Positions 14,941 to 61,130 of a stretch of DNA of 64,000 bases are shown piece after piece. Source of the DNA: an uncultured Oscillospiraceae bacterium (GTDB lineage: Bacteria; Bacillota; Clostridia; Oscillospirales; Oscillospiraceae); the NCBI GenBank assembly GCA_934569045.1, contig CAKTJX010000008.1, positions 8,565-72,564 on the forward strand. The letters are read 5' to 3'. The first letter of the stretch is position 1. Each line of letters begins with the position of its first letter. A program made the translations under genes and the position numbers. The notes under the pieces are model-generated. The model saw only the letters and a list, made by a program, of their open reading frames with translations, was not told where the DNA came from and searched no databases.

Positions 14941-15139
14941 TTTTGGGGGCTGTTGCATCTGTGCGGCAGCCCCCAAATGAAATCCGGCCTGCGGCCGGGT
15001 GAAATCCGCCTTGCGGCAGGTGAAATCCGGTCGGTGACCGGATGAAATCGCCCGGTTCGGGCGGTTGTGGTGTCCCTTCGGGACGATTGAAAATGAAAAG
15101 GGGTGCGTTGCGGTTCATGCGCAGCGCACCCCTTTTTTT
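14941..15139 (+). repeat. Tandem-hairpin 3' element, copy A, ending in a terminator
   Basis: It begins next to the telA stop. A leading hairpin GGGGGCTG/CAGCCCCC (14945-14974) is followed by four GAAATC boxes at 14979, 15001, 15022 and 15044 (spacing 22, 21, 22), each followed by a short hairpin such as CCGGCC/GGCCGG and CCGGTC/GACCGG. Next comes GTCCC-TTC-GGGAC (about 15072-15084). The last hairpin, AGGGGTGCG/CGCACCCCT (15099-15133), has a T7 tail and acts as the terminator. The closing hairpin probably serves the converging gene too. Copies B, C and D share the same order. Confidence 0.9.
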
Positions 15140-16814
15140 AGTTCTCTGCGGTTCCGGTCAGGAGCTTTTGCAGAAGCATCAGGTCTGACAGGTTTATTTG
15201 GCCGTCGCCGTTCAGGTCGGCGTTGCCGGTTTCCACCAGCACATTCTGGCCTGCCAGGTACCGGCGCAGCCGCAGCAGGTCTGCCGCAGTGACCCGTCCG
15301 TCGCCGTTGATGTCGCCGGGGATGCCCACGGTCACCTGGACAGAACCGGCATGGCAGGTAACCTCTAAGAGCTCTGCCTGGTCATTGACGCCGGAAACCT
15401 CCGTCAGGGCCACGGGGATTTCCCCCTGGGGGGCCTGCTGGGAAATGCGGAACAGGAGCGTCAGGATGGCCCCGTTTTCCTCCGTCTGGTCCGGCTGAAT
15501 CCAGAGGGCCTTCTCCCCTTCCCCCAGCCCAACCGTCCAGTCTCCCTGGGCGAAAGCCTCATTGGGGCAGTCGAAGTCCTCCAGGGTCAGCAGGCTGCTG
15601 TCATAATCGATCTGGAAATTCAGACCGCAGAGGCCGGGATTGTTCGCCAGGGTCACGGTCACCTTCACCGTCTGCCCAGGCTGGGCGGATTCGCTGCTCA
15701 CCGTCAAAATAGGCAGGAGCTTCTGCACCGGCTCGGTTTCCGCAGTCTCCGGCTGTGTCTCGTCCGCGGCCGCTGTTTCCTCGGTCTGGGGCTCCGTGGT
15801 GTCCGCAGTCTTGGTGGGCACCGTCTCCTCTGTCCGCGATTCTGTCGTCTCTTCGGTCTGGGGAGCCGACGCATCCGGCGCTTCCTCCGTGGCCGCAGTC
15901 TCTTCCGCGGGTTCCGTCTCCGCCGTATCCAGAGCTGTGAAGTCCAGGCCCTTGGCCTCGGCAAAGCTTTCCGCTGCCGTGCCGGAGTAGCCCAGAATTT
16001 CCGGGGCGGCATCCAGGGCGTTTTCATCCACCGTCTCGATGCTCGCCGGGAAGGTCACCGACACCAGCTTGCGGCATAGGCTGAAGGCCCCGGCATCCAC
16101 CGCCGTGACGCCCTCCTCCAGGGTCACATCCGTAATGTCTCCCCGGAGAGAATCCCATGGATAGTAGCGTTCCCCCTCTTTCAGGGCAACGTCCCCCTTG
16201 CCGGAGACAGTCAGCTCGCCGCCGGACAGGGTCCAGGTGCCTCCCGCCCAGGTGCCTTCCTGGGATGCCAGCTTGTGCAGGTCCACCTGGCGGAAGGTTC
16301 CGCCGTTTGCCTGTATGTAATCCTGCACGCCGGTGCCCGCCGTGCCGTTGATCAGGGTCTTGTCGCCAAAGGCGCCGTCCCCCACCCAGGCAACGCTGCC
16401 GGGCAGGAACACCGTGCTCAGCTGGGTGCATCCGGCGAAGGCGTTCTGCCCGATTCCGATCAGCCCTTCCGGGTAGGTAACCCAGCACAGGGCGGTGCAG
16501 TTTTCAAAGGCGCTGTCATGGATATAACGAAGGCTCTTGGGCAAGGTAACGGATTTCAGGGCGGTGCAGTCCTTTAAGGCCTCCGCCTGGATGGCGGTAA
16601 TTCCCTCGTCTACCCGCAGGGCCGTAATCTCCTCCTTGGAATTCTCCCAGGGCAGCGGCGTGGAAAAATCCATTTCCCCCTGGCCGGAAATGCAGAGCAC
16701 CCCCTCCTCCAGGGACCAGCTCTGCTCCGGCGGCTCGGCCCAGGTTGGCACAGCCAGCAGAAACAGCGCCGCCAGGCACAGTGCCGCGGACAGAATCCAT
16801 CTACAGCTTCTCAT
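15138..16814 (-). CDS. Secreted BspA-type LRR, cohesin-like and dockerin protein
   Basis: A 558-residue protein with a signal peptide (residues 1-26). Two BspA-like leucine-rich blocks follow (about 35-150, with LKSVTLPKSLRYIHDSAF, and about 185-290). Next is a threonine/glutamate-rich linker (about 295-365), a cohesin-like domain (about 370-500, GQTVKVTVTLANNPGLCG) and a C-terminal type I dockerin (about 503-556). The dockerin has two calcium loops, DINGDGRVTAAD and DLNGDGQINLSD. No sortase motif is visible. A cohesin and a dockerin in one chain could allow self-assembly or docking to other surface proteins. It lies 28 bases downstream of ftsH on the same strand and may be read through from it. 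Confidence 0.85.
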   Translation of the reverse strand: MRSCRWILSAALCLAALFLLAVPTWAEPPEQSWSLEEGVLCISGQGEMDFSTPLPWENSKEEITALRVDEGITAIQAEALKDCTALKSVTLPKSLRYIHDSAFENCTALCWVTYPEGLIGIGQNAFAGCTQLSTVFLPGSVAWVGDGAFGDKTLINGTAGTGVQDYIQANGGTFRQVDLHKLASQEGTWAGGTWTLSGGELTVSGKGDVALKEGERYYPWDSLRGDITDVTLEEGVTAVDAGAFSLCRKLVSVTFPASIETVDENALDAAPEILGYSGTAAESFAEAKGLDFTALDTAETEPAEETAATEEAPDASAPQTEETTESRTEETVPTKTADTTEPQTEETAAADETQPETAETEPVQKLLPILTVSSESAQPGQTVKVTVTLANNPGLCGLNFQIDYDSSLLTLEDFDCPNEAFAQGDWTVGLGEGEKALWIQPDQTEENGAILTLLFRISQQAPQGEIPVALTEVSGVNDQAELLEVTCHAGSVQVTVGIPGDINGDGRVTAADLLRLRRYLAGQNVLVETGNADLNGDGQINLSDLMLLQKLLTGTAEN

Positions 16815-19795: not shown

Positions 19796-21862
19796 ATGGA
19801 TAACCAAGAAAATCTCGATGAAGTGCAGGACTTTGACCTGGATTCCATCCTAAACGAATTTCACACGGACCCAGATCAGCCCGAGGCAGAGCCGGAGGCT
19901 GCCGCCGCCCAGGAGGATTCCGGCGCCGACACAGCCCAGGAGCCCCCGGTGAATCTGGACGGGGACGACGATTTTGAGCGGGAGCTCTCCGCCCTGCTGG
20001 GGGAACTGGACGATTCCACCGAACCCGGTGAAGCGGAAGAAATCCGGGAGGATCTCTCCGAGACCAAGGTTTTCTCCGTACCGGAGGAGGCCGGGAGTGC
20101 CCCGGAGTCCGCTGGTGCCGCCCCGGCGGACGGCCAGCAGACCATCCGCTTTGAAAGCGTCCAACCCCGGGAAGCGCCCAAAAGTGAGCCGGAGCCCATC
20201 CCCATTCATGAGGGACTGCGGGAGCTGCGGCGGAAAATCATTGCGGGGCCTGAAAAGCGGTACTATGAGCTCTCCGATCAGGGGGTTCTGGGACTGCAGA
20301 TTGCCATTGTGCTGAATCTTCTGGTGGTGGCCTTCTGCGCCGCCTCCGCCACCATGTTCACTATGGAAATGGTGCCGGAAAACCGGCTTCGGTTTGTTAT
20401 CTTCACCCAGGTGCTGGCCATGCTGGTGTCTGCTTTGCTTGGCTGCCATCAGATGCTGGATGGGCTGGGAGAGCTGCTCCACGGGCGCTTTACCATCAAT
20501 ACCCTTCTGACCTTTACTCTGGCCGCCTGCTGCGCGGACGCGTTCTTCTGCTTCCAGGAGCTGCGGGTGCCCTGCTGCTCCGGCTTTGCCCTGCAAATGA
20601 CCTTCGCGCTGTTTGCCCGGTATCACCGCCGCACCACAGAAACCTACCAGATGGACACCCTGCGCAAGGCCACCCGGCTGAAAAGCATCGTCAAGGAGCC
20701 GGACTACCTGGACGGAAAGCCCGTGCTGCTCCGGGGCCAGGGCGATGTGGATGACTTTACACAGGTTTACCAGAAGCCCACCACGCCGGAAAAGGTTCAG
20801 GGCTTCTACTGCCTGCTGAGCCTGCTTGTTTGCATTGGCCTGGCGGTGCTCGCCGGACTGCGGCACAATGTGAGCCTGGCTTTCCAGGTGCTGTCCGTAT
20901 CTCTGATGGCCGCCGTGCCCGCCAGCTTCTTTGTATCCCTGACCCGGCCCGCCTGCATTCTGGAGCACCGGCTGCACATGGTGGGCGCTCTGATCTGCGG
21001 CTGGCAGGGGGTCGCCAAGCTCCGGGGCAAGGCCTGCTTCCCCATTACGGATGACGACCTGTTCCCCACCGGCTCCACCAAGCTCAACGGTGTGAAGTTC
21101 TACGGGACCCGGGAGCCGGAGCAGATTCTCTCCTATGCCTCTTCCCTGATCAGCGCCTCCGGCGGGGAACTGGTGCCCCTGTTCCAGAATATGCTGAAGA
21201 ACCGGGGCGGCAGCGAGTACCCTGTCAACGAATTCCGGGATTACGGCATTGGCGGCGTAGGCGGCGTCATCCGGGGCGAGGCGGTGCTGCTGGGCAACCT
21301 GGAATTTTTGCAGAGCATGGACGTAAACATCCCCCAGGGAACCACCGTTTCCCAGGCGGTGTATATGTCTATTGACGGTCAGCTCAGCGCCGTGGTGGCC
21401 ATTTCCTACGCGAAAATGCGCTCCTCCTCCGCTGGCCTCACCTCTCTGAACGGCTACCGCAAGGTCCAGCCGGTGATGCTCACCCAGGACTTCATGCTGA
21501 CCAACGAATTCCTGCACAGCAAATTCTCCATCAATACCCGCCGCTTCATCTTCCCGGACCGTCAGACCCGTGAGGAGCTGATTGGGCGTCAGGCCAGCCC
21601 GGATTCCCCCGTTCTGGCCCTGTCCACCCGGGAGGAGCTGGTGAGCTCTGTGTACCCCATCACCGGCGCCAATGCCCTGTATACCGCCTGCCGCCTGGGT
21701 CTGCTGATCCATATGCTAGGGGGCATCGTGGGTATGCTGATCATGTTCGCCCTGGCCTTCCAGGGCAGCACCGAAATTCTGACCCCCGCCAATGTGCTGC
21801 TCTACCAGCTGATCTGGATGGTTCCCGGGCTGCTGGTGACCGAGTGGGCAAGAACCGTGTGA
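19796..21862 (+). CDS. Degenerate P1B-type ATPase-like membrane protein
   Basis: A 688-residue protein with the eight-helix plan of heavy-metal P-type ATPases but without their catalytic residues. Residues 1-155 are acidic and probably disordered. Helices lie near 163-185, 198-218, 234-252, 260-275, 336-355, 363-386, 635-656 and 662-682. The CPC metal site is replaced by AVPAS (373-377). The phosphorylation motif DKTGT is replaced by TDDDLFPTGST (418-428). The hinge MLTGD reads MLTQD (561-565). Nucleotide-domain-like GGVIRGEAVLLGNLEFL (489-505) is retained. It probably does not pump, and may serve as a sensor or scaffold. It is likely co-transcribed with rlmB. Confidence 0.75.
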   Translation: MDNQENLDEVQDFDLDSILNEFHTDPDQPEAEPEAAAAQEDSGADTAQEPPVNLDGDDDFERELSALLGELDDSTEPGEAEEIREDLSETKVFSVPEEAGSAPESAGAAPADGQQTIRFESVQPREAPKSEPEPIPIHEGLRELRRKIIAGPEKRYYELSDQGVLGLQIAIVLNLLVVAFCAASATMFTMEMVPENRLRFVIFTQVLAMLVSALLGCHQMLDGLGELLHGRFTINTLLTFTLAACCADAFFCFQELRVPCCSGFALQMTFALFARYHRRTTETYQMDTLRKATRLKSIVKEPDYLDGKPVLLRGQGDVDDFTQVYQKPTTPEKVQGFYCLLSLLVCIGLAVLAGLRHNVSLAFQVLSVSLMAAVPASFFVSLTRPACILEHRLHMVGALICGWQGVAKLRGKACFPITDDDLFPTGSTKLNGVKFYGTREPEQILSYASSLISASGGELVPLFQNMLKNRGGSEYPVNEFRDYGIGGVGGVIRGEAVLLGNLEFLQSMDVNIPQGTTVSQAVYMSIDGQLSAVVAISYAKMRSSSAGLTSLNGYRKVQPVMLTQDFMLTNEFLHSKFSINTRRFIFPDRQTREELIGRQASPDSPVLALSTREELVSSVYPITGANALYTACRLGLLIHMLGGIVGMLIMFALAFQGSTEILTPANVLLYQLIWMVPGLLVTEWARTV

Positions 21863-22051
21863 GGCAGCTGCTCGGCAGCTGCGGTGAAATCCAGCCGTTG
21901 GCTGGGTGAAATCGGTCTGGCGACCGATGAAATCCGATCTGTGACCGGACGAAATCACCCTTGCGGGTGGATATGGTGTCCCTTCGGGACGAATAAACAA
22001 GCGGAAAAGAGAGGGCGTGTTGCAGCCTTTGCAACACACCCTCTCTTTTTA
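21863..22051 (+). repeat. Tandem-hairpin 3' element, copy B, ending in a terminator
   Basis: It starts at the stop codon of the pseudo-ATPase gene. A leading hairpin CAGCTG/CAGCTG (about 21865-21881) is followed by GAAATC boxes at 21886, 21908, 21929 and 21951 (spacing 22, 21, 22). Their hairpins are CCAGCC/GGCTGG, CGGTC/GACCG, CCGATC/GACCGG and ACCC/GGGT. GTCCC-TTC-GGGAC follows. The closing stem, GAGAGGGCGTGTTGC paired with its near-complement (22009-22045), has a TTTTT tail. Confidence 0.9.
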
Positions 22052-22075: not shown

Positions 22076-22127
22076 CCCGTAGGGGCGGCTACCATGTTGC
22101 TCTTGACATAATAGCCGCCCCTACGGG
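22076..22127. repeat. 16-bp perfect inverted repeat
   Basis: CCCGTAGGGGCGGCTA at 22076-22091 and its exact complement at 22112-22127 enclose a 20-base loop. It has no T-tail and lies after the terminator of copy B, so it is not a simple terminator. It may be a dispersed palindromic repeat. A second copy is not present in this window. Confidence 0.8.
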
Positions 22128-26400: not shown

Positions 26401-27255
26401 TCAGAATTTCCCCGATCTGCCGGAATGGCTGCCGGAGGAATAGCTTGTGGAAACGCTCCCGGAGCCGCCGGAGCTGCTTTTCTCTGTCTGGCGGGGGGTA
26501 CGGGTTACGGTACGGCGCAGGAAGTGGTCCGACTGCCGGGTCAGACGCATAGAACCGGGCACCACATAGTCATCCGCCTGGTTCTTGGTTCCGGCAGAAT
26601 GCATGGGCACAATCAGCACCACCGCGGTAACCGCCGCGGCAAAGAGCCCCGGCAGGCAGAAGAAGACGATGGTGACAAGCAGGCTGCTCTCTTCCTCCGC
26701 CTGGTCGTTGCGGCTGGCAAGGCCCTCCCCGATGGGGGTCCCGTTCCGGGCTGCCTCCAGGTATTCCTCACAGCAGTTCAAATACTCGTTGAAGCCGCCG
26801 TAATAGTCATTGTCCCGGAAATAGGGCAGAATCCGGTCCTCAATGTAGTCCCGGCCGGCCTCCGTAAAAATCGCATCCGCCCGGTCGCTGTTGAAATCCA
26901 GGTTGAAATCCCGCTCCGCCATGCTGAGCATCAGGGTTGCCCCGGCCTTGTCCGGGCCCCAGCCCAGCTCATAGCTGTCGTAGATATCGATGCAGGCATC
27001 CTCAATGCTGGAAGCCTTGGAGTAGGTGGTATAGTCGTCCACCACGATCAGATACACGCTGAAGCTGTACTCCTGGCTGATCTCCTGGGCCCGGGCTTCC
27101 AGGGCGGCATCCTGGTCAGAGGTCAAAAGGTTTGCGGCATCCGTCATGTGCCGCAGCTTGGCATCGGAGTCATCCTCCGCCGCAAAGACAGCCAGGGGCA
27201 GCGTTACCAGCAGAAGAAGTGTCAGAAGCAAAGGGAGCAAACGTCTTGTCTTCAT
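26401..27255 (-). CDS. TPM-domain membrane protein (YdjH-like)
   Basis: A 284-residue protein with a signal peptide (residues 1-25) and an extracellular TPM domain (about 35-175; HMTDAANLLTSDQDAALEARAQEI, then FSVYLIVVDD). One membrane helix lies near 195-220. The cytoplasmic serine/glycine-rich tail ends in SSGSHSGRSGKF. TPM domains occur in photosystem II maturation proteins and in membrane stress modules. It is the third gene of a leftward operon with a zinc-ribbon protein and an SPFH protein. In Bacillus the same trio follows pspA as ydjG-ydjH-ydjI, where it acts in membrane-stress defence. Confidence 0.85.
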   Translation of the reverse strand: MKTRRLLPLLLTLLLLVTLPLAVFAAEDDSDAKLRHMTDAANLLTSDQDAALEARAQEISQEYSFSVYLIVVDDYTTYSKASSIEDACIDIYDSYELGWGPDKAGATLMLSMAERDFNLDFNSDRADAIFTEAGRDYIEDRILPYFRDNDYYGGFNEYLNCCEEYLEAARNGTPIGEGLASRNDQAEEESSLLVTIVFFCLPGLFAAAVTAVVLIVPMHSAGTKNQADDYVVPGSMRLTRQSDHFLRRTVTRTPRQTEKSSSGGSGSVSTSYSSGSHSGRSGKF

Positions 27256-41176: not shown

Positions 41177-41510
41177 ACTGTCAAAAAATCCCTACGGGCT
41201 TTTCCGACAAACTTTTGCAGTCTGCTGCGCGCACGCCCTACGGGGGCACTGCTCCGCGCTAAGAGCCGCCTACGGCGGTTGCGCTCTGCACAGTGCTGCG
41301 GCGCTAGACTTGCAGCCTGATAGGTATTTTCTGTCAGGTACACGCCCCGACAGAAAATGATTTTACTTTATTTGCCGACTTCCGTCGGCAAACTCTGCTG
41401 GGCTTCCTTGCAAGTGATTTATGGCTGGGCGGATGTGGTGTCCCTGAGGGACGATTTTAAAAATGAGCGGAGCGCTACGTTTGGGCAGCGCTCCGCTTTG
41501 CTTGTCTGAG
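41177..41510 (+). repeat. Hairpin-rich gene-free region with a truncated tandem-hairpin element (copy E)
   Basis: No gene is visible here. Perfect stems are CCGCC-TAC-GGCGG (41266-41278), ATTTTCTGTC/GACAGAAAAT (41326-41335, 41349-41358) and TTTGCCGAC/GTCGGCAAA (41371-41379, 41384-41392). From 41427 the sequence matches the 3' part of copies A-D: GGGCGGATGTGGTGTCCC, then GGGACGA (ending 41453). A closing stem GCGGAGCGCT/AGCGCTCCGC (41466-41475, 41487-41496) follows. The GAAATC-hairpin part is missing. The last stem probably terminates the converging HMA gene as well. Confidence 0.75.
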
Positions 41511-46329: not shown

Positions 46330-46519
46330 ACTTTTGGGTCTGCCGCAAAAGCGCGGCAGGCCCAACGAAATCCGACCGATGGCCGGGTGAAATCTGTCTG
46401 GCGACAGGAGAAATCCGGTTTCAACCGGACGAAATCGCCCCTGCCGGGCGGTTGTAGTGTCCCTGCGGGACGAACTGGAAAAGAGCGCGCTGCGGTTTTT
46501 TCAGACTGCAGCGCGCTTT
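46330..46519 (+). repeat. Tandem-hairpin 3' element, copy C, ending in a terminator
   Basis: It begins at the stop of the Cys-rich gene. The leading hairpin GGGTCTGCCGC/GCGGCAGGCCC is followed by GAAATC boxes at 46367, 46389, 46410 and 46431 (spacing 22, 21, 21). Their hairpins include CTGTC/GACAG, CCGGTT/AACCGG and GCCC/GGGC. GTCCC-TGC-GGGAC follows. The closing stem AGCGCGCTGC/GCAGCGCGCT (46484-46517) has a short T-tail. Confidence 0.9.
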
Positions 46520-46532
46520 TGGGAAAATAAAA

Positions 46533-48926: not shown

Positions 48927-48952
48927 CGCCCCTATCCAATCCCAAAAACAGC

Positions 48953-49130
48953 GAGTGCGTTGCAAACCAATCGCAACGCACTCAATTTTTATTCGTCCCG
49001 CAGGGACACCGCAACCGCCCCAACAGGGCGATTTCACCCGATCGAAGACCGGATTTCATCTGTCAAAGACAGATTCCACCCAGCCCCGGCTGGATTTCAC
49101 CTGGGGCTGCCATTGCGGCAGCCCCAGATT
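48953..49130 (-). repeat. Tandem-hairpin 3' element, copy D (minus strand)
   Basis: Read on the minus strand it starts at the stop codon of the CGGC gene. A first GAAATC box overlaps the stop (49132-49127) and a leading hairpin CTGGGGCTGCC/GGCAGCCCCAG (49101-49127) follows. Boxes lie at 49098, 49077 (variant GGAATC), 49057 and 49035, with hairpins CCAGCC/GGCTGG, CTGTC/GACAG, CCGGTC/GATCGG and GCCC/GGGC. GTCCC-TGC-GGGAC follows. The closing stem GAGTGCGTTGC/GCAACGCACTC (48953-48963, 48973-48983) has T-runs on both sides and may also terminate the converging pseudouridine synthase gene. Confidence 0.9.
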
Positions 49131-49472
49131 TCAGTGGGTTCCTTCCTCCCATGCCAAATGCTGGTTGTCCAGGGCCTGCTCGATCTGAGCCAGCTGGGGG
49201 CACTTGTGCACAACACAGGTGGCAATGTGAATCTTGTCCACATGCTCCTGGCCCATGCGCTCCAGCTTCTCCGTAAAGCCTGGGTCCATCAGCTTGTCTG
49301 CCTCACAACCGTTGCAGTCAAAGTAGGCGGAGAGCTCCACCGTCTGTCCCTCGTACTGGGTAAAGCTCTTCTTCCGGTCATAAAAAGTCCGGAAGCAGGC
49401 CGCGCCGGTGCAGACGCTGCCGGATTTGCGGCAGTGCAGAATGGCAATTTTCTCAATTTTTCCTTCCATCAT
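49131..49472 (-). CDS. CGGC-domain putative metal-binding protein
   Basis: A 113-residue cytoplasmic protein of the CGGC domain family. Conserved cysteines appear in ILHCRKSGSVCTGAAC, FDCNGCEAD, IATCVVHKCP and their spacing matches this family. It is thought to bind metal but its reaction is unknown. It is the last gene of the cobalamin-riboswitch-controlled ABC transporter operon and starts at the stop of the second ATPase gene, which suggests that it handles the imported metal or cofactor. Its 3' end carries tandem-hairpin copy D. Confidence 0.82.
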   Translation of the reverse strand: MMEGKIEKIAILHCRKSGSVCTGAACFRTFYDRKKSFTQYEGQTVELSAYFDCNGCEADKLMDPGFTEKLERMGQEHVDKIHIATCVVHKCPQLAQIEQALDNQHLAWEEGTH

Positions 49473-54795: not shown

Positions 54796-55000
54796 TATTG
54801 GTGTAAGCTCGGTCCCCCACCGGAACGTCAGACACTTCCAACGGCAGGTCTCCTGGCTTCGGTTCCACGCACTTCGTCCCCTTCTCGGCAGAGCCAATGG
54901 GCTATTGACGAAGCGCTCCCCATCACAGTAGAGCGGGCTGCGGCAGATTCACACTGCCTTCCCTTTTAAACCCTCCGAACTTTCTCGGAAGGTACCGGTG
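54796..55000 (-). promoter_or_regulatory. Cobalamin riboswitch
   Basis: On the minus strand the B12 box AGCCAGGAGACCTGCC lies at 54858-54843. Upstream in order are GGTACCTTCC, TTTAAAAGGGAAGGC, GTGTGAATCTGCCGCAGCCC and ACTGTGA, all as in the cobalamin riboswitch family. The terminator follows within about 20 bases. B12 binding is known to turn such operons off. The controlled operon is the Opp/Nik-type ABC transporter with the CGGC gene. Confidence 0.93.
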
Positions 55001-55074
55001 GATGCAAATATCCAATTGCCCTGATTATACTACGTTTCCTGTAAAAAGCAAGAGGGAAATGGATATTTTTATAC

Positions 55075-60892: not shown

Positions 60893-61125
60893 CAAAAAAG
60901 CACCCCTGGATTTTCCAAGGGTGCTTGCATTCAGCACGGTTCCACCTTGATTTTTCACTCATAGCCCTCTGTCGTTGGGCGGACACGGCAGTGCTTGTGC
61001 CAATCGGCTTTCTCGCACGCAGCTCAGGAGTGGTATCGCCCAGGGCATTGGGACACGCTTGCAGCAAAACGCGCGCCTCTCTGAAACCAACACGGAACCG
61101 GGGTCAGTCTCCCTCTTCGCTATTA
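60893..61125 (-). promoter_or_regulatory. T-box leader of thrS
   Basis: On the minus strand the T-box AAGGTGGAACCGTG lies at 60949-60936. The terminator hairpin GCACCCTTGG/CCAGGGGTGC with a T6 tail follows (60925-60893). The GAGGGAGAC start of stem I lies near 61115. An ACC triplet lies in the region expected for the threonine specifier, but I did not fold the stem to confirm it. Uncharged tRNA-Thr should prevent termination. Confidence 0.92.
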
Positions 61126-61130
61126 CCAGG

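Follow-up and report, generated by a model that had tools for sequence, protein, structure and literature searches.

The stretch of DNA analysed here (64,000 nt from an uncultured Oscillospiraceae bacterium, hereafter the window) carries four copies and one decayed copy of a repeat whose core is Gut-1 (RF01706), an orphan RNA family that has already been described and to which a larger cassette context is added here. All of them occur after stop codons and on the coding strand. Comparison with related genomes suggests that the repeat is most likely a Gut-1-cored mobile cassette which occupies the terminator slot of a gene and includes a terminator of its own. Patchy copy numbers, orthologues that are free of the cassette and junctions located in T-runs lead to this reading.

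The copies of the window have a layout, designated type B, in which a single array has a leading hairpin on its 5' side and a GTCCC (or GTATCCCC) hairpin on its 3' side, in most cases with a terminator behind it. In detail, each of the four is composed of a leading hairpin, four linker+hairpin units of 20-22 nt, a GTCCC(TKC)GGGAC hairpin and a terminator with a T-run, and starts at most a few bases 3' of the stop codon (TAA for copies 1 and 3, TGA for copies 2 and 4) on the coding strand. The earlier note had reported four copies with this architecture, and their number, positions and layout were all verified. The genes located 5' of them are telA (PF05816), a gene with a CGGC domain and two genes with no Pfam match. 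Scores are given below for RF01706 and for R1, a covariance model built from 17 copies including the four of the window, which score 96.2-116.2 bits.

Copy 1 (+ strand) has its leading hairpin at 14942..14977, starting 2 bases past the telA stop, and its four units and GTCCC/GGGAC hairpin at 14977..15088 (RF01706, 62.3 bits; R1, 116.2 bits), with the Gut-1 core proper placed by Rfam at 14975-15053; the terminator hairpin and T-run follow at 15096..15139 (sequence and fold). The whole copy is predicted to fold at -119.8 kcal/mol (z -8.12). In copy 2 (+ strand), the leading hairpin (21864..21882) comes directly 3' of the stop codon (21860-21862) and is followed by the four units and GTCCC hairpin (21884..21994; R1, 104 bits; RF01706, 46.2 bits) and by a terminator recognised in the sequence (22006..22051). 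The corresponding parts of copy 3 (+ strand) are found at 46334..46365, 46365..46475 (R1, 96.2 bits; RF01706, 47.6 bits) and 46480..46522, the first and last being placed from the sequence. Copy 4 is on the - strand: its leading hairpin (49099..49129) is directly 3' of the TGA of the CGGC-domain gene (49131-49472), its four units and GTCCC hairpin occupy 48991..49100 (R1, 111.6 bits; RF01706, 60.5 bits) and its terminator, again read from the sequence, 48942..48985. A single stem position is mismatched in copy 1 (unit 2), copy 2 (unit 3) and copy 3 (unit 1). The decayed fifth copy (41351..41456, + strand) was detected by a motif match and by R1 (18 bits, E 0.0037); its units are degenerate, and its retained GTCCC hairpin precedes a terminator-like hairpin. 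Overall, the window contains 70 occurrences of GAAATC versus 36.35 expected from shuffles, and 6 matches to GTCCCTNMGGGACRA with at most one mismatch, at five places, versus 0.07 expected.

Other features of the window include a gene convergent to copy 1 (15138-16814, - strand) that encodes a single protein with BspA-type leucine-rich repeats, cohesin and dockerin, and three Rfam matches on the - strand, namely a Cobalamin riboswitch (54826-55014, 111.2 bits), a SAM riboswitch (91-182, 77.6 bits) and a T-box-like match (60914-61126) whose 48.9 bits are below the cut-off of 93 bits. An inverted repeat, CCCGTAGGGGCGGCTA...TAGCCGCCCCTACGGG, occurs at 22077-22127 and a similar one was seen by eye 3' of elements in genome G136 (L264, L267); it probably represents a separate, unrelated repeat family.

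The four copies align with RF01706 over the full model (1-77); two of them pass its gathering cut-off of 50 bits and the other two are just short of it. Three consecutive hairpins with UGAAAU linkers, the feature that the window copies have in common with Gut-1 RNA, are present in the RF01706 alignments of copies 1 and 4 and in the R1 alignment. Since the core is RF01706, a brand-new RNA family is ruled out for this part; the earlier note, which knew of no described function, was right as to function and had missed the existing description of the core. In the passages that concern Gut-1, Weinberg et al. (2010; PMC2864571) rated it as 'certainly' a structured RNA and 'probably not' cis-regulatory, gave its taxon entry as 'human gut only' (environmental sequence) and counted it with the noncoding RNAs unaffiliated with mRNAs. 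In the literature searched, the accession RF01706 was found only in that description and no further paper on Gut-1 was retrieved. The present data differ on both the latter traits: 70 of the 73 copies having a called upstream gene share the strand of that gene, and RF01706 scores over the cut-off in a genome from roe-deer colon (G006). In contrast to the RNA as published, the core sits here, in many genomes, inside a longer gene-end cassette with its own terminator, and a second form occurs behind tRNA genes and 5' of S23 genes.

In silico folding of 17 type B copies (window, G205 and G136) predicted 36 pairs, 16 of which display two-sided changes, with 96.9% of the cells of this alignment being paired. 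Double changes occur in 67 cells, compared with 21.0 after shuffling and 1 to 4 in slid controls; further pair types (30 versus 29.8) are not above the shuffles. A larger alignment (A3) comprised 79 matches, of which one on the opposite strand (L378 907-1036, 37 bits) was left out, giving 78 copies. On these, a self-scripted tree-aware null (FastTree, parsimony, 60 simulations) retained 6 of the 36 pairs at E < 0.05, distributed over helices 1 to 4 (2, 2, 1 and 1) and with no covarying pair in helix 5; two off-structure pairs likewise pass. As judged from these alignments, selection acts on sense-strand base pairing, as had been proposed from the paired stem changes in the window. Significant covariation, which the earlier note would have taken as support if present in each stem, is found in helices 1-4 and not in helix 5.

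The linkers had been regarded as fixed and single-stranded GAAATC, and neither property holds. Copy 4 has one GGAATC and other genomes have GATAT, GATGT or GAAGC, the linkers recorded across genomes being GTGAAAT, GTGATAT, ATGATGT and ATGAAGC. In the consensus fold of the 17 copies, the AU that ends one linker is paired with the GU at the beginning of the following one, which leaves only GAA or GAU unpaired; in the copy located at pfk in G414, the linker ends read GU / AU instead and the pairing is kept. Loops of the cUNCGg type number 102 versus 4 for the opposite-strand equivalent, many of them belonging to the conserved fifth hairpin, and because of this imbalance the functional form is likely to be RNA. 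A GTTGCA core common to the leading hairpin and the terminator was detected in both for only 14 of the 78 copies, by a strict hairpin count that fails on mismatched stems.

The genomic location of the 78 R1 matches was assessed with a self-written gene finder (pooled codon-usage model) and a terminator finder. These matches come from 70 chosen sources, which represent ten genome sources with the window counted as one; the weaker matches are type-B-like, less than proven type B. The upstream gene is on the same strand in 70 of the 78 (58 within 120 nt), on the opposite strand in 3 and was not called in 5; the downstream gene is in the opposite orientation in 48, on the same strand in 27 and missing in 3 (Fisher p 9e-7 for upstream versus downstream orientation). 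A terminator is present within 110 nt 3' of the array in 65. The 3'-end, coding-strand placement noticed earlier in the window is hence also that of copies in other genomes. In a separate survey of 77 arrays from nine genome sources (some of type A, see below), an upstream protein was available for 63, one gene being counted twice (L262), and no orthologous upstream proteins were found between genomes among these 63, only two weak matches with 25-27% identity. The array finder used for this survey misses linkers of the ATGATGT type, and hence the pfk copy of G414, a genome of which it covered 2 arrays. A conserved regulatory element of particular genes was discarded on the grounds that upstream genes, pfk excepted, are not shared between genomes.

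The distribution among relatives was explored by large searches in which 9, 22 or 62 candidates were scored per genome, so that the counts are lower bounds. The closest telA relative, among the best 80 of 219 matches, is Pseudoflavonifractor sp. MSJ-30 (G001; 90% protein identity). Of 200 genomes of its family, 39 have RF01706 matches and 28 of these reach a score above the cut-off, with a maximum of at least 22 matches in one genome (22 candidates scored per genome). A covariance-model search of related genomes, which the earlier note had proposed, was performed with R1 and was positive in 46 genomes out of 400 from the same family (9 candidates each); matches above 75 bits are confined to five genomes (G136, G205, G190, G023 and G357), the one in G357 having the appearance of a type A array behind a tRNA. 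In the genus of G001, 22 of 61 genomes match, the best score being 84.6 bits in G461 (62 candidates per genome). In the genus of G205 (16 genomes), G205, G412 and G414 have 18, 23 and 9 matches respectively, G413 and G416 a single one each, and 11 genomes none; similarly, G136 has 29 and the 3 other genomes of its genus none. Identity between copies is 0.81 within genomes, 0.78 when two genomes of the G205 genus are compared and 0.63 otherwise, and each window copy has another window copy as its nearest neighbour. Among the roles suggested earlier, that of a mobile RNA-like repeat family is supported by these patchy copy numbers, by the unshared upstream genes and by the cassette-free orthologues described below.

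Several variants were observed in the course of these searches. In G136 (L262, L264, L265, L267, L274), a second 3' form, GTGATGTGNGYGACAACAATACG..CATTCATCC with variants, takes the place of the GTCCC hairpin, and L262 and L274 have two arrays in succession. At L253 (G190), the array and its flank are tandemly duplicated, 215 bp apart. Two tandem arrays were seen by eye directly 5' of a phage-terminase-like gene at L301 / L231 (G072:C35, about 26600-27000). Viral contigs were scanned separately for exact triple GAAATC, with at least 120 stretches being found; of the 80 such loci listed, R1 matches only one with an E of 0.01 or lower (L110 5000-5097, + strand, 48.5 bits) and the others look like chance, so that a phage origin was rejected.

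Gain of copies was examined at gene ends of G205 and G412, where 17 copies were eligible; 11 gene ends were queried and 10 had close orthologues, none being found for L392 at 82% or more. At 9 of these 10 ends (rny, rsmH, mscS, L236, L238, L240, L244, L366 and L391), the cassette is absent from every readable close orthologue, which mostly has a plain terminator instead; the L391 orthologue of G413 was unreadable because of a contig end. All 13 other genomes of the G205 genus whose rny end was read are cassette-free, which indicates that the cassette was gained by G205. The same rny flanks, GAGCAC | TTTTTCAAATTTTTTG, surround the cassette in G205 and, in G413 and G414 (gene ends 96-97% identical), enclose a plain terminator: both flanks are kept and the plain hairpin is replaced by the cassette. 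The right flank resumes within the old T-run at rny, rsmH (versus G412) and L391, and less exactly at mscS, where the G414 site has undergone other changes and has no plain terminator. At L236, the flank resumes in a T-run lacking a clear hairpin in G414, and G412 has another repeat there. At L244, the last codons are altered and the stop is supplied by the first linker; at L366, the segment separating the stop from the T-run has been replaced, and the right flanks of L366 and L238 are too diverged for the junction to be placed. Finally, the terminator of the relatives at L240 resembles that of the cassette itself, so that insertion beside or before the terminator, or loss in the relatives, fits this site as well as replacement does.

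The pfk copy is common to G205 and G414, which indicates that copies are inherited once gained; it is absent from G412 and G413, whose downstream sequence differs. For the window, the G001 orthologue (83%) of the gene preceding copy 4 has a plain terminator directly 3' of its stop, the rest of the intergenic region being different, and telA of G001 (locus L001) is also followed by a plain terminator. Among 80 telA loci, R1 gave a single weak match (23 bits), which lies over 4 kb away from telA. Inspection of the compared empty sites by eye revealed neither terminal (inverted) repeats nor target-site duplications, the marks by which a MITE is recognised. Target duplication as the source of the leading hairpin and terminator was excluded since the old rny stem resembles neither. 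Taken together, these comparisons of orthologous ends clearly point to copies gained at gene ends, on the coding strand and at the place that the ancestral intrinsic terminator had occupied, with the junction in the T-run where the right flank can be aligned.

In the scheme proposed here, one copy would correspond to one mobile cassette of about 180-200 bp, composed of the leading hairpin, a Gut-1 core of four GAA/GAU-linked hairpins, the GTCCC hairpin and an intrinsic terminator. Because the cassette brings its own terminator, the host gene would still end properly, and copies would be tolerated and accumulate. Group IIC introns target intrinsic terminators as well, a preference which the cassette shares; it differs from them in that 180-200 bp is too small for the intron structure or a reverse transcriptase and in that the terminator is replaced, not followed. 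The least certain step of the scheme is mobilisation, for which an S23-family protein, encoded by related paired-array elements behind tRNA terminators, might bind the arrays and supply the activity.

The link to S23 comes from type A arrays, which consist of two mutually facing arrays, the first of them frequently adjoining the T-run of a terminator, and which are often located 5' of a PF05635 gene; at least 7 pairs of Gut-1 and PF05635 within 300 bp occur among the matches listed. After removal of 4 duplicates and of 2 loci with no recognised ORF, 35 distinct PF05635 loci were considered, 6 of which had been preselected for nearness to Gut-1 and some others of which come from carrier genomes. 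An array is present within about 650 nt upstream in 18 of these 35, a same-strand tRNA in 19, both in 13 and neither in 11; as a control, 810 kb of telA loci were scanned with the array finder, which gave 21 arrays. Rfam analysis of 20 loci placed a tRNA or RNase P RNA 5' of the array in 12 of the 14 array-bearing ones (the exceptions being L284 and L300), and at L286 (G182:C16) the paired S23-linked array is behind an RNase P RNA gene rather than a tRNA. Such paired arrays have a tRNA (or RNase P RNA) terminator on one side and a gene for an S23-type four-helix-bundle protein on the other; four of these proteins were confirmed with Pfam. A different arrangement was seen by eye at L297, L298, L299 and L303, where S23 genes have no hairpin arrays and lie between short direct repeats, for example GACAGTTGACAATT or GAGATAGGAGATAG; these are perhaps another S23-linked element type.

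At the genome level, PF05635 is confined, within the G205 genus, to the three copy-rich genomes G205, G412 and G414, the 13 others having no match (p 0.0018), a search made after the idea of an S23 link had been formed. In the family of G001, it occurs in 25 of 39 RF01706-positive versus 26 of 161 negative genomes (p 9e-9, uncorrected for kinship). The match is not complete: G023 and G315 have type B copies and no PF05635 match, and G001, G045 and G357 have PF05635 with no type B copy found, so that S23 is neither clearly necessary nor sufficient; genes may be missing from draft genomes. No recognisable S23 gene is located within the 64-kb window. Since PF05635 is missing from two copy-bearing genomes, the role of S23 as a mobiliser is put forward as a hypothesis; that S23 proteins mobilise or bind the arrays is a tentative lead with real but imperfect support from these associations. 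We know of no account of the role of S23/four-helix-bundle proteins, none was among the literature matches listed, and no paper among these matches joins S23 proteins, tRNA terminators and hairpin repeats. The intervening sequence (IVS) of Coxiella is an element with an S23 ORF within 23S rRNA (PMC4990558), comparable in that a PF05635-type ORF lies in a small element at a stable-RNA locus; it differs in being inside 23S rRNA, whereas the arrays here follow the terminator of a tRNA or RNase P RNA gene, and the form seen in the window is ORF-less. A broader picture, in which S23 proteins of gut Clostridia recognise GAA-linked arrays as part of an RNA-centred mobile system invading intrinsic terminators, with an ORF-bearing form behind tRNA/RNase P RNA genes and an ORF-less Gut-1 form swapping out mRNA terminators, is possible but speculative.

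The main competing interpretation is that of a REP-like repeat moved as single-stranded DNA by a RAYT/HUH (Y1) transposase, with a tag and palindrome occurring singly or in inverted pairs and S23 being a bystander. Tag+palindrome units, inverted pairs, intergenic spread and within-genome families all resemble REP/REPIN systems (PMC3116915, PMC3733652), and the resemblance to REP/BIME/REPIN with RAYT (see also PMC2817692) extends to the many copies per genome, inverted pairs being found here in the S23 form. However, the tag is neither GTAG nor CGTC, as none of GTGAAAT, GTGATAT, ATGATGT and ATGAAGC contains either; the co-occurrence seen is with S23, and the sense-strand cUNCGg loops point to RNA. 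The cassette is further distinguished from REP by four units in a fixed order with their own terminator, oriented and in the terminator slot. We consider such an origin rather unlikely.

A host-useful 3'-UTR element, whose hairpin chain would shield the mRNA end or bind a regulator and be kept as the host gene needs it, would agree with the strict gene-end, coding-strand placement, with the strongly selected structure and with the pfk copy retained in two species with compensating changes. It is nonetheless improbable, given upstream genes that are unrelated and, except for pfk, unshared between genomes, orthologues that manage with no cassette and 11 of the 16 genomes of the G205 genus devoid of any match. 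Ordinary fast evolution, with terminators changing quickly and arrays growing in place by slippage, would account for the different stem sequences of the relatives' terminators and is very hard to reconcile with the same multi-part cassette, sharing a within-genome consensus, at unrelated genes of one genome and missing as a whole at orthologous sites.

The reading favoured here, that of a mobile cassette in the terminator slot, would provide a testable answer to the question of what the Gut-1 RNA is. It would describe a repeat that spares its host by supplying the very function it displaces, namely the terminator, and S23/four-helix-bundle proteins would gain a candidate RNA partner. Finally, species-specific copies would rewrite the 3' ends of ordinary genes, which may be relevant to the reading of mRNA ends in gut bacteria.
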